A DNA stretch of 13,856 nucleotides, taken from positions 1-13,856 of the forward strand of contig JALLBK010000680.1 of the NCBI GenBank assembly GCA_036940085.1. Direction: 5' to 3'. The stretch's first letter is position 1. Each line of letters begins with the position of its first letter. This stretch comes from Discostella pseudostelligera. Taxonomy: Eukaryota > Bacillariophyta > Thalassiosirophyceae > Thalassiosirales > Thalassiosiraceae. Of this stretch, positions 4,483-12,321 are shown piece by piece. The position numbers and the translations under genes are program-made. The notes below the pieces were generated by a model, which did not search any database, was not told the origin of the DNA, and saw nothing but the letters and a program-made list of their open reading frames with translations.

Positions 4483-6320
4483 ATGTGCCGAGTGAGAGCT
4501 GCCCCCGTGGAACAATCCATCCCTGTTGTGAATCATTATAGTTCGAATACTATGGACGCCAATAAAGCTGACGCTAGGATACATTCAACATCACAGAAGT
4601 CAAATTTACGAGTACTCATCTGCTCGGAGAATGTGCCACCACAAGTTAATGGAATTGCACGTCGCGTGGGCATGTATGCCGACGGGTTGAGGAATCTTGG
4701 GTGCGACGTGGGTAAGTAGATATCATTCAATAATCTCGTACACTGCATTGAAAGTCTGCGGGTGTCTACAACATATGAATTCATTCTCAATTTTCATCTT
4801 GTCATCTCAATGCCCCATCAGATGTCCTACATCCCGACTCTGGTGTGTCCAAGGTACTCTCTCACGTCAATCCATGGAACTTCACTGCGCGCATGATGAT
4901 CGTCCATCCAGCCCAACTATTCAAGCTCCTCGCAACTCCCTACGATGTTGTGCATATTGTCATGCCTGCCAATTTGTCGGGTATGTGGATTCTTGCGGCA
5001 TTCAAGATTTTACGTTGCATTAAGGTAAGATATCACATGTGCTCGGAGAAGTCTGGATGCATTGTTGCCACCGTTGAACAATCAAATTTAACATCTCGTC
5101 ACCTATCTTTTGATGCATGACAGTGCGAATCAAAACCAGCTCTGGTAGTCAGCTGGCACTGCAATATCGTTGACTACATTAAGCACTTCTCCATCGGTCC
5201 ATTACGATTCTTAATGTACGCCTTCTTCTTCCTCTTGTTTGGGATGCTTCCCATGATCAGTGATCGTGTCCTCACCCCCACAAAGAAGAGTGAACCACGT
5301 CTTGTGGCCCTTTGGGAACGATCGATTGGGAAACGTGCCGGTGTTTGTTTTACCGGTGTGGATAAGGCGGAATTTTCTCCGGCGATGAAGGAATCGAAAT
5401 GGGGAAGGAATTGGTTAGCGTCGAAGGAGAAATATTTGAAGCGAGAGAATAAGAAATTTTTGCTAGTTTGTGTGGGTAGACTCTCACCCGAGAAGGGTGT
5501 GGATGGTGAGGAAGGATATCTATGGAGTAATGATGTTGACAAGCACACAATACGAATCACTCATGATCTTCTTTGCTCTTCCTTTTCATTGATACCAGAA
5601 CTGATCAAGGTACTTCCTCGATTGCCCGATTGCGCATTGTGGCTAGTGGGAGATGGTCCATTCCGTCCGGAGCTGGAACGTCTTGCGCGTGTCCTGGACG
5701 TACCAGTGAAATTTCTAGGATATCAAAGTGGCGAGGCACTTCACTCCGTGTATGCAGTGGCAGACTTGTTCGTTTGTCCATCTCTCACGGAAACGTTTGG
5801 GCAGACTGTCAATGAGGCCCTTGCCTCTCAAGTTCGAGTGGCTCTGCCGAATGTACCAGTCTTCGCGGAGGCATATGGAGAGGCCATCCCTTCAGATGCG
5901 TTTTGGAAACCACTTGACCAATCCGACATGGCCAATGCCATATCACGGCAACTTGTGCGACACGCCAGGAATGATCCCACTGGATTGCCCGACCTCGACA
6001 AACTAAAAACGTGGACCGACGCTTGCCAAGCTCTTCTTGGAGAGTACCGACATGCATTTCAAGATCGTCAACACACGTTCACACTCTTATCATGGATCTA
6101 TTTCCCGATATGGTGTGCTTTTACTATCTCGACAACTATATCATTCTTCGTCTTCGCCCAGATCCGATCGGTCTGTGGTGGATCCGTTCGTCTCTTTTTT
6201 AGGTCTGCTGCGGAGGATATGCTGATCAAGGTTCAATCTTTCCAACGGTTACCTTCTTTTGAAAGTTTGAATCGTATGGAAGCTGCAGAGAAGCGACCTG
6301 TTCGAAGTCGAAGCGAGTGA
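4483..6320 (+). CDS. GT4 glycosyltransferase, SQD2-like
   Basis: Four exons: 4483-4711, 4822-5024, 5124-5505, 5599-6320, giving 511 residues; all introns are GT-AG. An alternative ATG in frame is at 4552. The N-terminal Rossmann half starts RVLICSENVPPQVNGIARRV, with VSWHCNIVDYI later. The C-terminal half has GRLSPEKG (262-269), LVGDGPFRPELE, and the EX7E donor-binding motif E336-E344 in SLTETFGQTVNE. This is the retaining GT4 pattern shared by SQD2 (sulfoquinovosyl-diacylglycerol synthase) and mannosyl- or glucosyl-lipid transferases, so a nucleotide-sugar donor and lipid acceptor are likely but unproven. A hydrophobic stretch (PLRFLMYAFFFLLFGMLP) and an unusual C-terminal tail with a probable membrane helix (about 432-460) suggest membrane attachment. 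The 93-nt third intron is in frame without stops; removing it joins VD to ELIKVLPRLP and restores the family pattern. It converges on the PSD-like gene, 224 bp apart. Confidence 0.85.
5506..5598 (+). other. Stop-free 3n intron (93 nt) in glycosyltransferase
   Basis: Donor GTGAGG follows GGTGTGGATG; acceptor ATACCAG precedes AACTGATC. Read through, it would insert 31 residues between GRLSPEKGVD and ELIKVLP, where GT4 enzymes have no insertion, so splicing is the better model. Confidence 0.75.
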
Positions 6321-6544: not shown

Positions 6545-7778
6545 CTAATGGGCAAGCGACTCCCCAACAAGAGTCTCTACATGAACACCCTGCTCAGCAG
6601 CCTTCTGCAAAGGATAGAGAATGTCGATTGGCTTGGTCGTGAATAATGCAAACGCGCTGATATGAATCATGAAAGAAAGGGAGTTAGTGAAGACCGATGC
6701 AATCAGGTGGGAAAACGACATATTGCCAACCTACCTTCCACCTGCTCTAAATGCCGATAGCTCATGTCCCTTCGGAATGCTTTTGCCAATCATCTGTGCA
6801 TCATAAGTAATAGTGTTGACTCCCACACCGCCAATGATGACCAGTGCTGCACGCAATGGCTCTTCGTCATCTCCTTGCTCTCCTCCTTCCTCTTCTAATA
6901 CAATGACCAATCTCTTGTTCTCATTCAAGAGATTGAATTTGCCACCAAAGAACTTTACCGATGCAGAAGGCGAGTCGAGACCTTCCATTTTGCAGTGGAC
7001 AACTTTTCCCTACCAAATCATAAGGCGCAAGAATGCGTGGCACATGGAAACGATCAAGCATGCACGTTTGTCAATACGATATCCGGTACAAAGAAAACTA
7101 CATTGGTCGATCAAAATAAGCTCCTTTGATTCTTACCGATATGGGTGCATGCACTCTGTGATAATCCTTTGGGGACAAATATCCCAATATGACACGATTT
7201 TTTCGATAGGCATCCAGATCTTCTTCTGGTAGGCCAATGTTGGCCACGTCATAATTACATCCCTTAATCAAAATCGATTTCATACTCTCATCATTCACAA
7301 AGCTTTGGATTTTGCAACACGCAGGAGATAACAATTGACCATCGCCAATTTTGGGGAAATGTTGAGGCGCATAAGTCCGTGAGAAGAAATCATTGAGGGA
7401 GGTATAACTTTGAATCTCCTTCTCCCATATCCAAGGCTGTTGTTGAATATCTAATCGGTTGCAAAATTCGGTAATCTTAGCGGTGGCCTCCTCTTCGCTC
7501 GAAAAGGGTGTGTCCCATGAATTTTGTATGCGTGTGAAGAAGAAAATGATTCCATTGATGATTGCATTCGAGGTGCCGAACAAGGCCATGTCGAAGAGCA
7601 GTGTGGCGAAGACACCCTCGAAGAGTGTCATGCGCGGTTCATTGCTCTTCATTGTCGCCGTGCGTAGGACATACACCTCGAGTGGAGAGGTGTTTTCCCG
7701 AATACGATTGGATATGTGACGGGGGAGGAAGAAGAGCAAGAGACGTGCGATGAAGTCTCCGATGGCGAAGAAATCCAT
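6545..7778 (-). CDS. Phosphatidylserine decarboxylase-family protein with altered triad
   Basis: Exons in transcription order: 7778-7137, 7009-6735, 6656-6545; 342 residues. PSD enzymes are pyruvoyl-dependent, cleave themselves at a C-terminal Ser, and turn PS into PE at membranes. Visible motifs: SLNDFFSRTYAP (127-138), PKDYHRVHAPIS with His207 and His210 (the triad His), SGKVVHCKMEG after the first splice, and AGGS at 303-306, where Ser306 (codon split by intron 2) is the expected pyruvoyl Ser. Oddity: the conserved PAD(G/S) segment reads SPACCK, so the triad Asp is Cys154. Self-processing or substrate may thus differ; the family also contains non-lipid decarboxylases such as fungal tryptophan decarboxylase PsiD. 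The N-terminus has two hydrophobic stretches (about 3-19, 56-81), suggesting membrane attachment. The short tail after Ser306 (36 residues) is complete to TAG. It diverges from the fusion gene across 565 bp. Confidence 0.85.
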
Positions 7779-8343
7779 TGTTGAGTTGAGTGGTGCACCG
7801 TTAGATGATGAATGGGTTGGTTGGCCGACGCAGGTGGCTACGACCTACGACCGAGTTCTCACAGGACAGTCTAATTGAATATTGAGCTATCCCTGTTAAT
7901 TGGCTGCGCAGTGGATGCAGCAGAGCTATTGGCGTTGGCAGCGTACTATTACCTACTCCTAGATTTCTGGCGGCGACAAATACCACCACCTTTTACAGTC
8001 CATGGTCAATGGCCAATTGCCAAGCTTGGCGCCAAAATGAGGCCATAGAATAGGTAGAATTGTGGCGAAAATAATGGCGGGAAGATGTTTCGGCGATAAG
8101 ATGGCGAAGAAAATTTTGCGAAAATGGCGGGAGAACGACATCCGTCGCGCGCTTGAATCTTCCACACAACCGCCATGATGACGATAGAATCTTTTCCTTT
8201 TGCTTTGCTTACTCACCATGACCATGAGATGTGCCGAGCTCGCATTGACTCATTGTAATTGCACCCATCGATCATCGATCACTACGCCACCACAACATCG
8301 CACCGTCAATCATCATAATCTCAACAACCCTCCTCGACGAACC
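7779..8343. promoter_or_regulatory. Bidirectional control region of PSD-like and fusion genes
   Basis: A 565-bp gap between divergent starts. It holds an E2F-like palindrome TTGGCGCCAA (8026-8035, extending to TTTTGGCGCC on the minus strand) and two GGCGGGA sites inside a short direct repeat (8064-8133). An in-frame ATG at 8218 could extend the fusion protein by 42 residues, but 8344 has the stronger start context. Confidence 0.5.
8064..8133 (+). repeat. Two-copy GCGAAAAT...GGCGGGA repeat with E2F-like cores
   Basis: Copy 1 runs about 8064-8084 (GGCGAAAAT, AA, TGGCGGGAAG) and copy 2 about 8117-8133 (TTGCGAAAA, TGGCGGGAG). A further GGCGATAAGATGGCGAAG lies between them. The repeated core GGCGGGA resembles an E2F half-site. 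The copies sit about 210-280 bp before the fusion-gene start and about 290-360 bp before the PSD-like start. Confidence 0.45.
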
Positions 8344-11128
8344 ATGGGCCCCGTCGCTGCACTAGTTCTGGCCTTCATCGCCATCTCTCTCTTCATCAAA
8401 TTCGCCCGCGAGAAGGTGGAATTCTTCCTTCACTCCAATTTCAAGTACCACGTCCTCGACGCGCTGGCATCGTACATTCATTATGGAAATGATATCGGCG
8501 TCGATGCGGCATTGCAACTTGATTCTCCTACGCAAGAGGTGTTCCAACGTCGTATGGAGGGGCAGAAGTATTTGACATCCAAGCTAGGTGACACATCTAC
8601 TACCAACGGTGCATCATCGTCGGCATCGGGGGGAGACAGGTCGGAATCTCGTGGACATCAACTTGCATCGTCATTGGTAGATTGTCGTTTCATCTTGGCC
8701 AAGGTGTGCATGCCACTATTGCGTGAATTGGAATTCCCAAATGAGAAGCGCAATTTCATCACGGGGGTATTCAATAACAAAAATAATGGCAATGACGCAG
8801 AAGCCAAGAGTGGCGGTGGTGGTGGAATGCTCCACGTTCTTAACGAAGATGGAGTGTCCCGACCATATGTGGGGAATGATGCCGTGTACACATTTGGAAT
8901 TGATTCGTTCTACGCACCTATTCAGGAGGAGGTGAGCCGTCGCATGACTTTGAAAAATGATGACTCCAAATTGAGATTTTGTCCGATTGCCATGAATGGA
9001 GAGATTGAGAAGAATGTGGAACTTATCAAGAGACTTACGGGTTTGGATAAGGTGAGATATCTTGGTTCATGAGGGCAATGAAATGTTGTTGAAGTGTGTA
9101 ACTGAATTTGTTCAATGGCCATAATTTCGCCACCCAGGTTCGTTATTCTCTCAGTGGTTCGGAGGCAGTTGACGGTGCATTGAAGGATATCAAGGCATCA
9201 TGCAACAACAAGCCTCTCGTGGTGCGCTTCAAATCGGCCTATCACGGTCACGTATCGGGAGTATCTTTCATTGATTGCCCCAATCACGTATTCCTACCGG
9301 AATGTTCGCAAGAGAGCATTGACTTCATTGAACGGTACCACTATCGCATTGCCGCCGTTATTGTGAATCCCATGCAACATTTTACTGGCATTAATAAGCC
9401 TAGTCCTCCGGGGGAGAAGGTGACGCATTCGAGCCGTATTCGATCTTCCGTACCGCGTGATGAGTATGCGAGGTGGCTTCATTCGCTTCAGGAGAAGTGT
9501 ACTTACTGCACCAAGTATTTGTCGAAAGTGAGTTTTTGGAATCTGTAATGTCAAGCCGTTTCATTGTTCCCTACATCATGCATTCATTTAGCTCATTTTC
9601 TTCCTTTTCTACTGACGAAATAAGGTCGCATTGGTTATGGACGACATCTATTTTGCATTCCGCACCCCTGAGCTGCTCAGTAGCAACTACTTTGCCCATC
9701 CCGATACAAAGGCTTCATTGAAGCCAGATGTGATCATTCTCGGGAAAGCATTGGCCGCTGGATATCCTCTCAGTGCGATTGTTGGACGAGAGGGATTCCT
9801 TAACTCGTACGATAAGAAGTTCTTGCTTCAGGTGAACAAGACTGTGGGCACTTTCGCGGCATGGCATGGTGGCATTGTGGCGTCCAATGTATTTTTGGAA
9901 GCCCTCGAAGGACGTGGTTGTTCCGACGGAAAGCCAATTCTCAAAATCAGTGCCAAAGATCAGCTGACGAGTTTAGTGCAGAAGTGTGATGCCTTCACTG
10001 AGTCACTCAATGCGGCATTTGCCAAAGCGGTTGTTCCAGTTCGTATTCGCAACTTTAGCAACACTTTCTCGATCGATTTCCTCAACAAGTCGCTTTACAA
10101 CAGCCGTTATCCTCAGTATTTACTCGCGGAAGGCATCTTCCTTGGAAACTATTCTACGGGCAAATTCAACCTTAATGCCGATACTACCAAGAATGATTTC
10201 AATGACTTGGAAGCAAAGTTTGTTGCCGCGGCCACCAAAATGCAACGCGATGGTTACTTCGAACCCATGAAGTCAGGCGTGAAGTTCAAATTCCTCATCA
10301 AACTCATGACTCGGTTTGCTAAGAACTATGCCAAGCTCTACTACGATCAAATCATGGCGGATAAGCACATCGATATCGAGGTGTCGCACAACCACCCGGT
10401 GAATAAGTTTGGACACTTCTGGTCATCGGTTGGAATGATCCTGTTCGCTTATCCACACTTATTTTGGTACGGAGAGCCACTCAAGGGATGCGCTTGGTTT
10501 TTCATGACGCACGTCGTGAGGCAGAGTGGTCATTTCTTCTACGAACATCAGGTAAGCGATCGATCAAATCTACTGATGGTGTTCGTGCAATATTCAAATC
10601 TAACCCTACTGCTGCTCCCAATACCTCACAGGACCGTGACATTGAAAAGCTCAAGTTTGGACACAAGGATGCAAGCAAGAAAGAAGCGGTCGCGTTCCTT
10701 TCATGTGCCGCGCTCATCTACAACTACCGGGAACAGCTAAGCTCCTTTGCTAGCACGTACATTGATCCTTCATTCTTTCAACTTTCGATTGATCAATACG
10801 TCCTTGTGATCGCGCTGTTCACTGTCGTTCCACACTTCGTTGAGATCATCTATCAGTTTGTAAGTGAAGATAATATTTCGATCTTTGAACTCAACACCCG
10901 TCTCGATGTAAGCCCCATCTAACTTGATTGCTTGCCGTATCTCAAATATCGTAGGGCTTTCTCCGCGGAATGTCCTGGGCTCTGAAAATCATCACCGACC
11001 CTTTCACAGATCTCCTAGATTTTTACACCCATGTGATCATTCATCCAAGATGGTTTCTCGACTTCAAGGAACATCGTGCTACCTACCGCTTGGATATCAA
11101 AACGAAGAAGGTTGTGAAGGTGGAATGA
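8344..11128 (+). CDS. Class III PLP aminotransferase fused to Mpo1/DUF962-like domain
   Basis: Five exons: 8344-9051, 9138-9527, 9625-10551, 10632-10859, 10955-11128; all introns GT-AG, 808 residues. The start ACCATGG puts a hydrophobic anchor (ALVLAFIAISLFIKF) at the N-terminus. Residues about 170-590 are a fold-type I, class III PLP enzyme closest to glutamate-1-semialdehyde aminomutases: SGSEA (242-246), YHGH (271-274), MDD with Asp372 for the pyridine nitrogen, Lys407 in GKALAAGYPLSA for the Schiff base, and TVGTF (439-443). All key residues are present, so it should be active. From 617 a membrane region follows with H621-x2-P-x-N-x3-H630 and GHFFYE (668-673), the signature of Mpo1/DUF962 proteins; yeast Mpo1 is an Fe(II) dioxygenase acting on 2-hydroxy fatty acids from phytosphingosine. 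Low-complexity Ser/Gly/Asn inserts occur before 200. The substrate is unknown; an amino-lipid or sphingoid-type substrate is inferred. It is probably not plastid GSA aminomutase, because of the anchor and the fused domain. Confidence 0.87.
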
Positions 11129-11444: not shown

Positions 11445-12321
11445 CTATGCAGCTTTAGCACTGTTTGTTTTGGAGCCAGACAATGCATTCGCCCAGCGTC
11501 GTCCACGTTCATTCTCCAACACTTTCATCGACATGAGATACCAGAATAGCTCGAAAACTGGAATCATCAATGAGGATGCTCCCACAGCGACATATATGCC
11601 GAAGACGGACAAGACAACACCTGTTGAGTGGAGAAGTAATCCAATGTTGAGCAGAGCGAGGCGGTTGGTCATCATGTCAATGAACCCTTGTAGGTACTTA
11701 CCCCAATACTGCGGGTCGCTGATACTGAGGTTGTATGGAAAGCAATAAACTCGTGACACTGGATATCCAAACTCGTAGCCATAATAGACACCCTTGGCAC
11801 CAAGTGCCTCAAATACTGCATAGTTGAGCACTTGACCAATGAATAATAGTAGCAGACCAAATGCAAGCTGAGCCGTCTTTTCTGGAGTTGCGAGCATCCC
11901 CCCCTGGAACAGATTGTTGAGAACATTTGTGCGATCCAATACTAGCAAATCGTAAGTGCAAACCCCAAACTGGAACACTTTGATGTACATTCCGAGCCGT
12001 TGCATACATCGCCAGTAGAATCCATCTTTCGATACGCTGGACAGGCCTGGAATTTTGTTTTGATCGACGGATTTCTTGAAATGATCGGTGCATATGTAGC
12101 AGTAGCTGTAAAGAAGCTGCAGTATGCTTTAATTGAGAAATGATATATGAATAGGCGCGGCATTTCATTTAAGATAGCATGAACTATTCCGGGAGCCAAT
12201 GACATAGTTACAAAATGTTCACATGACATGAACATAAACATAACGCACTCACCCGTTCAATGCCCAGTGCAAAAAATGCAATGACGGCAAATGGCATCGG
12301 GATATCAATATTCACGTTCAT
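11445..12321 (-). CDS. Phospholipid N-methyltransferase (PLMT/PEMT family)
   Basis: Exons in transcription order: 12321-12253, 12116-11702, 11620-11445; 219 residues. The second intron (81 nt) has no stop and is a multiple of three; splicing it joins PQYWG to VVLSVFGIYV and reproduces the plant/fungal PLMT pattern. Visible motifs: N-terminal helix FAVIAFFALGIERLLYSYCY, helix AFGLLLLFIGQVLNYAVFEALG, then GAKGVYYGYEFG, CFPYNLSISDPQYWG, and the final helix FELFWYLMSMKVLENE. In this ER-membrane family the G-x-Y-YG and PxYWG segments and the acidic motif after the last helix bind S-adenosylmethionine. PLMT enzymes do the second and third methylations, from phosphatidyl-N-methylethanolamine to PC (EC 2.1.1.71). 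Its place beside the PSD-family gene fits the PS-PE-PC route. Family is sure; the exact methylation steps are inferred. Confidence 0.88.
11621..11701 (-). other. Stop-free 3n intron (81 nt) in methyltransferase
   Basis: Donor GTAAGT and acceptor CTCAACAG, phase 1. Retention would add 27 residues directly after the conserved PQYWG motif. Family alignment logic favours removal. Confidence 0.78.

Follow-up and report, generated by a model that had tools for sequence, protein, structure and literature searches.

The diatom Discostella pseudostelligera carries, on a contig of 13,856 nucleotides analyzed here at its full length (JALLBK010000680.1 of assembly GCA_036940085.1; the window), a gene at positions 8344-11128 (+ strand) that joins a class III pyridoxal 5′-phosphate (PLP) enzyme to a C-terminal domain remotely similar to Mpo1. 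The whole fusion is a conserved gene of diatoms and other protists. Because bacterial homologs of the two halves neighbor each other in clusters with lipid genes, the protein is best read as two lipid enzymes linked in function; to judge from sequence comparison, the fusion is probably a bifunctional, membrane-bound enzyme of a pathway for a phosphorus-free amino-lipid head group, and it may help to build phosphorus-free membrane lipids by an undescribed route. A sequence-only reading of the gene had proposed a two-step amino-lipid enzyme at a membrane; the single transcript, the linked lipid enzymes, and the membrane domain are retained here, and the sphingolipid and 2-hydroxy-fatty-acid chemistry is not. 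That reading knew of no characterized enzyme with this architecture, and we found none among Protein Data Bank (PDB) relatives or in the literature searched (open-licence papers), which also yielded no description of the fusion or of the bacterial cluster.

The gene has five exons separated by GT..AG introns, begins with the ATG at 8344, and ends with the stop codon at 11126-11128; the spliced product is a stop-free protein of 808 residues. The exons were assigned from the spliced frame and from relatives, with hydropathy for exons 1 and 4 and Pfam for exon 3:

8344-9051, + strand: exon 1, residues 1-236 (hydrophobic N-terminal stretch, extension, onset of the class III PLP domain)
9138-9527, + strand: exon 2, residues 237-366 (SGSEA and YHGH of the PLP domain)
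9625-10551, + strand: exon 3, residues 367-675 (Asp372, Lys407, end of the PLP domain, first half of the Mpo1-like domain with HNHPVNKFGH and GHFFYE)
10632-10859, + strand: exon 4, residues 676-751 (KFGHKD motif, hydrophobic stretch of the C-terminal domain)
10955-11128, + strand: exon 5, residues 752-808 and stop (K-I-x-T-D-P-F-T-D motif, C-terminus)

All four PLP motifs named by the earlier reading lie where it had placed them (SGSEA at residue 242, YHGH at 271, Asp372, and Lys407), and its single spliced frame into a C-terminal domain with H-x2-P-x-N-x3-H (HNHPVNKFGH at 621) and GHFFYE (at 668) is borne out by the splicing and by conserved full-length relatives. The intron at 10552-10631 is 80 nucleotides long and would therefore shift the frame if retained. 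A gene-model error or two separate genes can be ruled out, since independent genomes and a transcriptome contain the fusion at full length. A hydropathy peak covers residues 1-25. Within the source assembly (23.0 Mb, 963 contigs) the C-terminal domain occurs at the window locus only; class III matches lie on five further contigs.

A whole-protein search (7997 candidates scored) identified 86 relatives at E ≤ 1e-3, many of which align over 95-100% of the 808 residues with 39-76% identity; one of the full-length relatives (P0009) is a protein of an MMETSP transcriptome. A profile search with 31 rows yielded 134 relatives (120 listed), many of these relatives being metagenome fragments. The fusion is present in other algae, where the earlier reading had suggested looking for it: named relatives among the matches listed include Thalassiosira pseudonana, T. 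profunda, Stephanocyclus, Conticribra, Cylindrotheca, Grammatophora (a 461-residue fragment), and Amoebophrya, a dinoflagellate relative. Both halves are conserved in an alignment of 31 chosen family members, with Aminotran_3 matched by all 31 and Mpo1-like by 29 at E ≤ 0.1 (best Mpo1-like match, 8.3e-5). A metagenomic, bacterial-looking protein of 737 residues (P0206) also combines the two domains, with a C-terminal domain of bacterial type, and is perhaps the product of an independent fusion event. Scans with an alignment of the eukaryotic C-terminal domain (A2) gave 57 pattern matches in viral contigs and 110 in bacterial genome contigs, none of which was confirmed; a viral origin was rejected on the first of these results, and in bacteria only a separate, distant form was found.

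The family also includes natural variants. Nine relatives of 212-345 residues (P0099-P0106 and P0108) have an intact Mpo1-like domain. In eight of these (P0100-P0106 and P0108; 322-345 residues) the C-terminal domain is kept at 47-51% identity, and the N-terminal 153-173 residues form a shrunken PLP domain from which SGSEA, YHGH, and the Lys are missing (hhalign probability 96, E 3.8e-9, for one comparison of eight rows with twenty). Another relative (P0055) is of full length and has an intact Mpo1-like domain, with Asn at the PLP Lys site and YHGH lost; a protein of 458 residues (P0085) likewise has Asn at that site and has no Mpo1-like motif.

The N-terminal half matches Pfam Aminotran_3 (PF00202) with E 4.4e-16 and 59 bits, against a gathering cut-off of 30.5; among PDB sequences, the listed relatives (24 at E ≤ 0.01) belong to class III, and the structure model has fold type I of class III. 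Lys407 and Asp372, which we take to be the Schiff-base Lys and the PLP-binding Asp from their roles in the family, occur in every one of 28 diverse rows, bacterial ones included; the alignment of 31 rows has Asp372 throughout and Lys407 in at least 90%. The nearest family models of the diatom protein are tied (PRK08117, an aspartate aminotransferase family, 43.6 bits; HemL, 42.6 bits). The domain shares the catalytic Lys, the Asp, SGxEA, YHG, and the fold with the HemL branch, and HemL-type models are also the top matches of two scanned bacterial cluster enzymes (185.3 and 174 bits). All scores for glutamate-1-semialdehyde aminomutase (HemL; TIGR00713) fall far below its cut-off of 527.3 (42.6 bits for the diatom protein, 185.3 and 172.6 for bacterial cluster enzymes). 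Unlike HemL, the fusion family has a long N-terminal extension, where all 28 rows compared share D60, R70, and D113, as well as a hydrophobic N-terminus and lipid genes as neighbors.

The C-terminal half was assigned to Mpo1/DUF962 by the earlier reading, over residues 617-808. The resemblance is real but remote: Mpo1-like (PF06127) scores 14 bits with the whole protein and 16.7 bits (E 0.0083) with its C-terminal part, below the cut-off of 24, and the match spans residues 620-675. Like Mpo1 dioxygenases, the fusion has the H-x2-P-x-N-x3-H and GHxxxE region inside the matched stretch; unlike them, it carries an additional conserved extension, KFGHKD .. TDPFTD, beyond that match. Members of the Mpo1-like family have conserved His residues for Fe2+. 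Nine positions (D616, H621, N626, H630, H669, E673, E680, D766, and D770) are invariant in 33 of 33 rows from bacteria to diatoms, among them three His (H621, H630, and H669) and acidic residues; the comparison covered the fusion family and its bacterial homologs. The domain is predicted to be helical. A profile search of PDB sequences with it gave no match up to E 1, and for a model of a bacterial homolog (pLDDT 83.9) the PDB offered nothing at E ≤ 0.001 and 29 matches at E ≤ 10, which is no proof of a new fold.

With 11 C-terminal domains as queries, 93 matches were obtained, mostly fusion fragments; six are stand-alone proteins of 202-206 residues that match Mpo1-like just below its cut-off. 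An alignment of five of these, compared with bacterial and archaeal genomes, gave at least 537 confirmed loci. The best 80 were analyzed; they are the most query-like and include close kin, and genes were counted across each retrieved stretch, at most about 20 kb. In 77 of the 80 a PLP enzyme is encoded by a gene separate from the Mpo1-like one, at E < 1e-20; its scores with a hidden Markov model (HMM) of the eukaryotic PLP domain are 127.7-248.6 bits, and 12 generic class III enzymes score 41-74 bits. A gene of the phosphatidylserine decarboxylase (PSD) family is found in 78 loci and a family 4 glycosyltransferase (GT4) in 65. Two loci (L017 and L020) break off at a contig edge in the expected place of the PLP gene, one (L068) ends within the PLP gene ahead of any PSD, and a 5.3-kb contig of coverage 0.84 (L039) has neither. 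Gammaproteobacterial loci, among them L005, L021, and L030, and one titled Mariprofundus (L014) have the one-strand order PLP enzyme, GT4 (900-960 residues), PSD, Mpo1-like.

In all 16 Hyphomicrobiales loci (10 of them Bradyrhizobium) a methyltransferase lies between the GT4 and the Mpo1-like gene, as a separate open reading frame (ORF) in 15 and in a single ORF with GT4 in L039; the one scanned (L073) is nearest to PmtA (163 bits, cut-off 390). A methyltransferase of this kind is present in 17 of the 80 loci, about 9 kb away in one (L008). All eight bacterial genomes tested have two PSD matches, one per genome being of the cluster type, so that the cluster PSD is a second and probably specialized copy. 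Among seven bacterial cluster members, Mpo1-like scores are 21.8-25.5 bits, with three at 24.1-25.5 (cut-off 24). Two further features of the loci are a metallophosphoesterase gene in 11 of the 80 (e.g., L032:6883-7695) and the length of GT4 in L005:6263-9046 and L021:6031-8907 (927-958 residues), whose N-terminal ~550 residues have no clear Pfam family (a weak GT61-like match in L005).

Some of the bacterial clusters carry PhoB boxes and may be under phosphate control. The 80 loci (1,399,548 bases, one strand) were scanned with a PhoB box consensus. Of eight sites with at most one mismatch, six precede the ORF of a cluster gene, 66-145 bases upstream of its start, namely that of GT4 in L061, L070, L074, L078, and L082 (all Bradyrhizobium) and that of the Mpo1-like gene in L071; nine of 10 Bradyrhizobium loci have a box with at most three mismatches at -144/-145 of the glycosyltransferase. 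Boxes with at most two mismatches occur in 9/144 upstream regions of cluster genes versus 5/350 of other genes (Fisher p 0.006), and with at most three in 25/144 versus 16/350 (p 9e-6), p values that are overstated because the loci are related. The shuffled means at the two thresholds were 1.5 and 7.2 for cluster genes and 0.2 and 5.9 for other genes, the dinucleotide shuffler being a simple swap method that may leave sites intact. If GT4 is counted among the controls, the contrast is weaker (17/118 versus 24/377 at up to three mismatches); a count that includes 60 coding bases, with plain shuffles, gives boxes of that grade upstream of 12/73 PLP and 14/79 Mpo1-like genes. A box with up to three mismatches is found in 22 of the 77 loci with a scored region, and most loci are without a good one. 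The diatom window has one three-mismatch match (1.97 expected), which is uninformative in a eukaryote.

The same set of functions adjoins the fusion in the diatom window, where assignments to glycosyltransferase, PSD, and PEMT are at the level of the family:

4483-6320, + strand: family 4 glycosyltransferase (exons 4483-4711, 4822-5024, 5124-5505, and 5599-6320; Pfam Glycos_transf_1 1.5e-17 for ORF 5121-6317, splice; first ATG uncertain, 4483 or 4552)
6545-7778, - strand: PSD-family gene (exons 7137-7778, 6735-7009, and 6545-6656; Pfam PS_Dcarbxylase 1.5e-12 for ORF 7098-7844, splice)
11445-12321, - strand: phospholipid methyltransferase (PEMT) family gene, two exons (Pfam PEMT 1.6e-7, 32.2 bits, cut-off 25, splice; acceptor of the second exon, ~12116, uncertain)

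In the window PSD, FRAGGSAF (GGSA) replaces the usual LGST self-cleavage motif, and an intron junction splits the Ser codon.

Taken together, GT4, an aminating PLP enzyme, an Mpo1-like oxygenase, a PSD-family decarboxylase, and an N-methyltransferase amount to a set for building a head group. Enzymes of the PSD family decarboxylate O-linked serine, and O-linked ethanolamine is the group methylated by PEMT and PmtA. All five enzymes would be accounted for by a head group that is free of phosphorus, ends in choline, and derives from a lipid-linked sugar. In the proposed scheme, the glycosyltransferase would add a sugar to diacylglycerol, and the PLP domain would introduce or shift an amino group on the oxidized sugar. 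The Mpo1-like domain, with a metal bound by His, Asp, and Glu and with O2, would then cleave the neighboring C-C bond to give carboxylates; a PSD-family enzyme would decarboxylate the resulting O-linked serine-like group, and the amine would be methylated by PEMT in diatoms and by an enzyme of the PmtA type in Hyphomicrobiales. In the fusion, a reactive amino-carbonyl intermediate would be channeled from one active site to the other. The sequence of reactions is inferred, as are the sugar, the metal, and the substrate.

Two known systems offer partial parallels. The BtaA/BtaB pathway of diacylglyceryltrimethylhomoserine (DGTS) also makes a phosphate-regulated, phosphorus-free lipid with N-methylation last, as described in part of one paper (PMC3972451); neither enzyme is among the identified genes of the window. 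By description in the same source, Agt of Agrobacterium glycosylates lipids under phosphate limitation to give glucosyl- and glucuronosyl-diacylglycerol (PMC3972451), and the latter would suit as a first intermediate. We know of no report of an Agt product feeding an amino-lipid.

Several observations weigh against this scheme. The window GT4 scores 140.8 bits with the HMM of the bacterial cluster glycosyltransferases, and another glycosyltransferase of the genome scores 148.9; the window PSD scores 48.8 bits with an HMM of six canonical bacterial PSDs and 28.9 with the cluster HMM, so that orthology of the two to the cluster genes is not borne out by HMM scores. The window PSD is the sole one found in the assembly and is nearer to canonical enzymes, and may therefore be a housekeeping enzyme; the diatom adjacency itself rests on one contig. 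Of the two bacterial cluster glycosyltransferases scanned, only one has lipid enzymes as its closest models: the two nearest models for L055 are lipid glycosyltransferases, far under cut-off, and those for L021 are not. No L073-like methyltransferase adjoins the Mpo1-like gene in 64 of the 80 loci (other types were not sought), which implies an unmethylated product or methylation by a distant gene. One genus supplies most of the strongest Pho boxes, and in control regions, too, boxes outnumber those of the shuffled sequences (5 versus 0.2 at up to two mismatches). Finally, the intact Mpo1-like domain beside a shrunken PLP part implies that both activities are not always needed jointly, and these relatives call for a separate explanation.

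The scores of the window PSD and GT4 also favor an alternative, which we consider unlikely: that the diatom PSD and PEMT are ordinary genes of phosphatidylethanolamine and phosphatidylcholine synthesis that adjoin the fusion by chance, and that the fusion acts on another amino compound. Yet the same kinds of function are grouped in bacteria, and there the cluster PSD is clearly additional to another PSD of the genome. One PSD protein of T. pseudonana (XP_002295759), a possible ortholog of the window PSD, moreover rises 2.94-fold under phosphorus deficiency, opposite to the expectation for housekeeping phosphatidylethanolamine synthesis, according to part of a study whose authors group it with phospholipid-handling enzymes (PMC6246746). 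Less probable still is a pathway in which catalysis falls to the Mpo1-like domain alone, the PLP half serving as a scaffold or persisting as a regulatory remnant. The relatives with a shrunken PLP part, and P0055 with its Asn, indicate that the C-terminal domain can persist without PLP chemistry; against this stands the conservation of Lys407 and Asp372 from bacteria to diatoms, in both alignments. Equally improbable is a course in which a sphingoid base or amino-lipid undergoes deamination or transamination by the PLP domain and the 2-hydroxy fatty acid so formed is shortened by one carbon by the Mpo1-like domain, as the genes shared by most of the 80 loci are PSD and glycosyltransferase, with no sphingolipid gene among the widely shared neighbors (no family-level search was made), a separate strong Mpo1-like gene (136.7-144 bits) lies elsewhere in three of eight bacterial genomes tested, and the long KFGHKD .. 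TDPFTD extension falls outside the Mpo1 match. The links drawn by the earlier reading to long-chain bases, 2-hydroxy fatty acids, and ethanolamine-phosphate lyase find no support: the neighbors (glycosyltransferase, PSD, and N-methyltransferases) point to head-group chemistry, and an Mpo1-type role on 2-hydroxy acids sits poorly with a match below the curated cut-off and with those separate Mpo1-like genes.

Under the preferred reading of a phosphorus-free head-group pathway, the single most likely diatom product, though less likely than not, is diacylglycerylcarboxyhydroxymethylcholine (DGCC), the betaine lipid that stands in for phosphatidylcholine in phosphate-starved Thalassiosira. It is conceivable, as a tentative proposal, that the fusion and its neighbors represent the missing DGCC route and that bacteria have an ancestral, phosphate-regulated version. 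The DGCC head group is glycerol-O-CH(COOH)-O-CH2-CH2-N(CH3)3, and it could be viewed as an opened 4-amino-pentopyranoside in which the acetal carbon would be the anomeric C1, the carboxyl C2, the lost CO2 C3, the CH2-N C4, and the O-CH2 C5. A lipid glycosyltransferase and a PLP aminase or aminomutase would be followed by Mpo1-like cleavage between C2 and C3 to give O-linked serine; PSD-family decarboxylation would yield O-linked ethanolamine, and trimethylation by PEMT or PmtA would match the reported methionine labelling. In passages of two papers, DGCC biosynthesis is called unknown beyond that labelling (PMC5835749, PMC10685587). Passages of a study of T. pseudonana report that four transcripts with methyltransferase domains rise and that there is no clear bta homolog despite the presence of betaine lipids (PMC3315573).

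The distribution of DGCC speaks in part against this assignment, as do the scarcity of adjoining methyltransferases and the greater likeness of the window PSD to canonical than to cluster enzymes. The lipid is not established in bacteria, and Symbiodinium makes it. Pavlova makes it as well, according to one paper seen in excerpt (PMC8379373). No named haptophyte or Symbiodinium is among the 120 of 134 matches listed, where most matches are nameless and homologs of bacterial-level divergence would escape, so that this only leans against DGCC. A tentative identification in an aquifer was termed unprecedented in bacteria in a passage of its report (PMC7242380). If DGCC is the product, the small candidate gene set makes the question of its route testable at once, and if the bacterial clusters act as proposed, an amino-lipid without phosphorus, so far undescribed, is made by many bacteria of soil and sea. 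Should DGCC not be the product, the cluster-linked halves still point to a new pair of lipid-modifying enzymes.

Toward its two ends the window encodes an alpha/beta hydrolase with a Cys-rich, zinc-finger-like N-terminus (1671-2714, + strand) and a HAD-family phosphatase that is broken off by the contig end (13159-13854, + strand).
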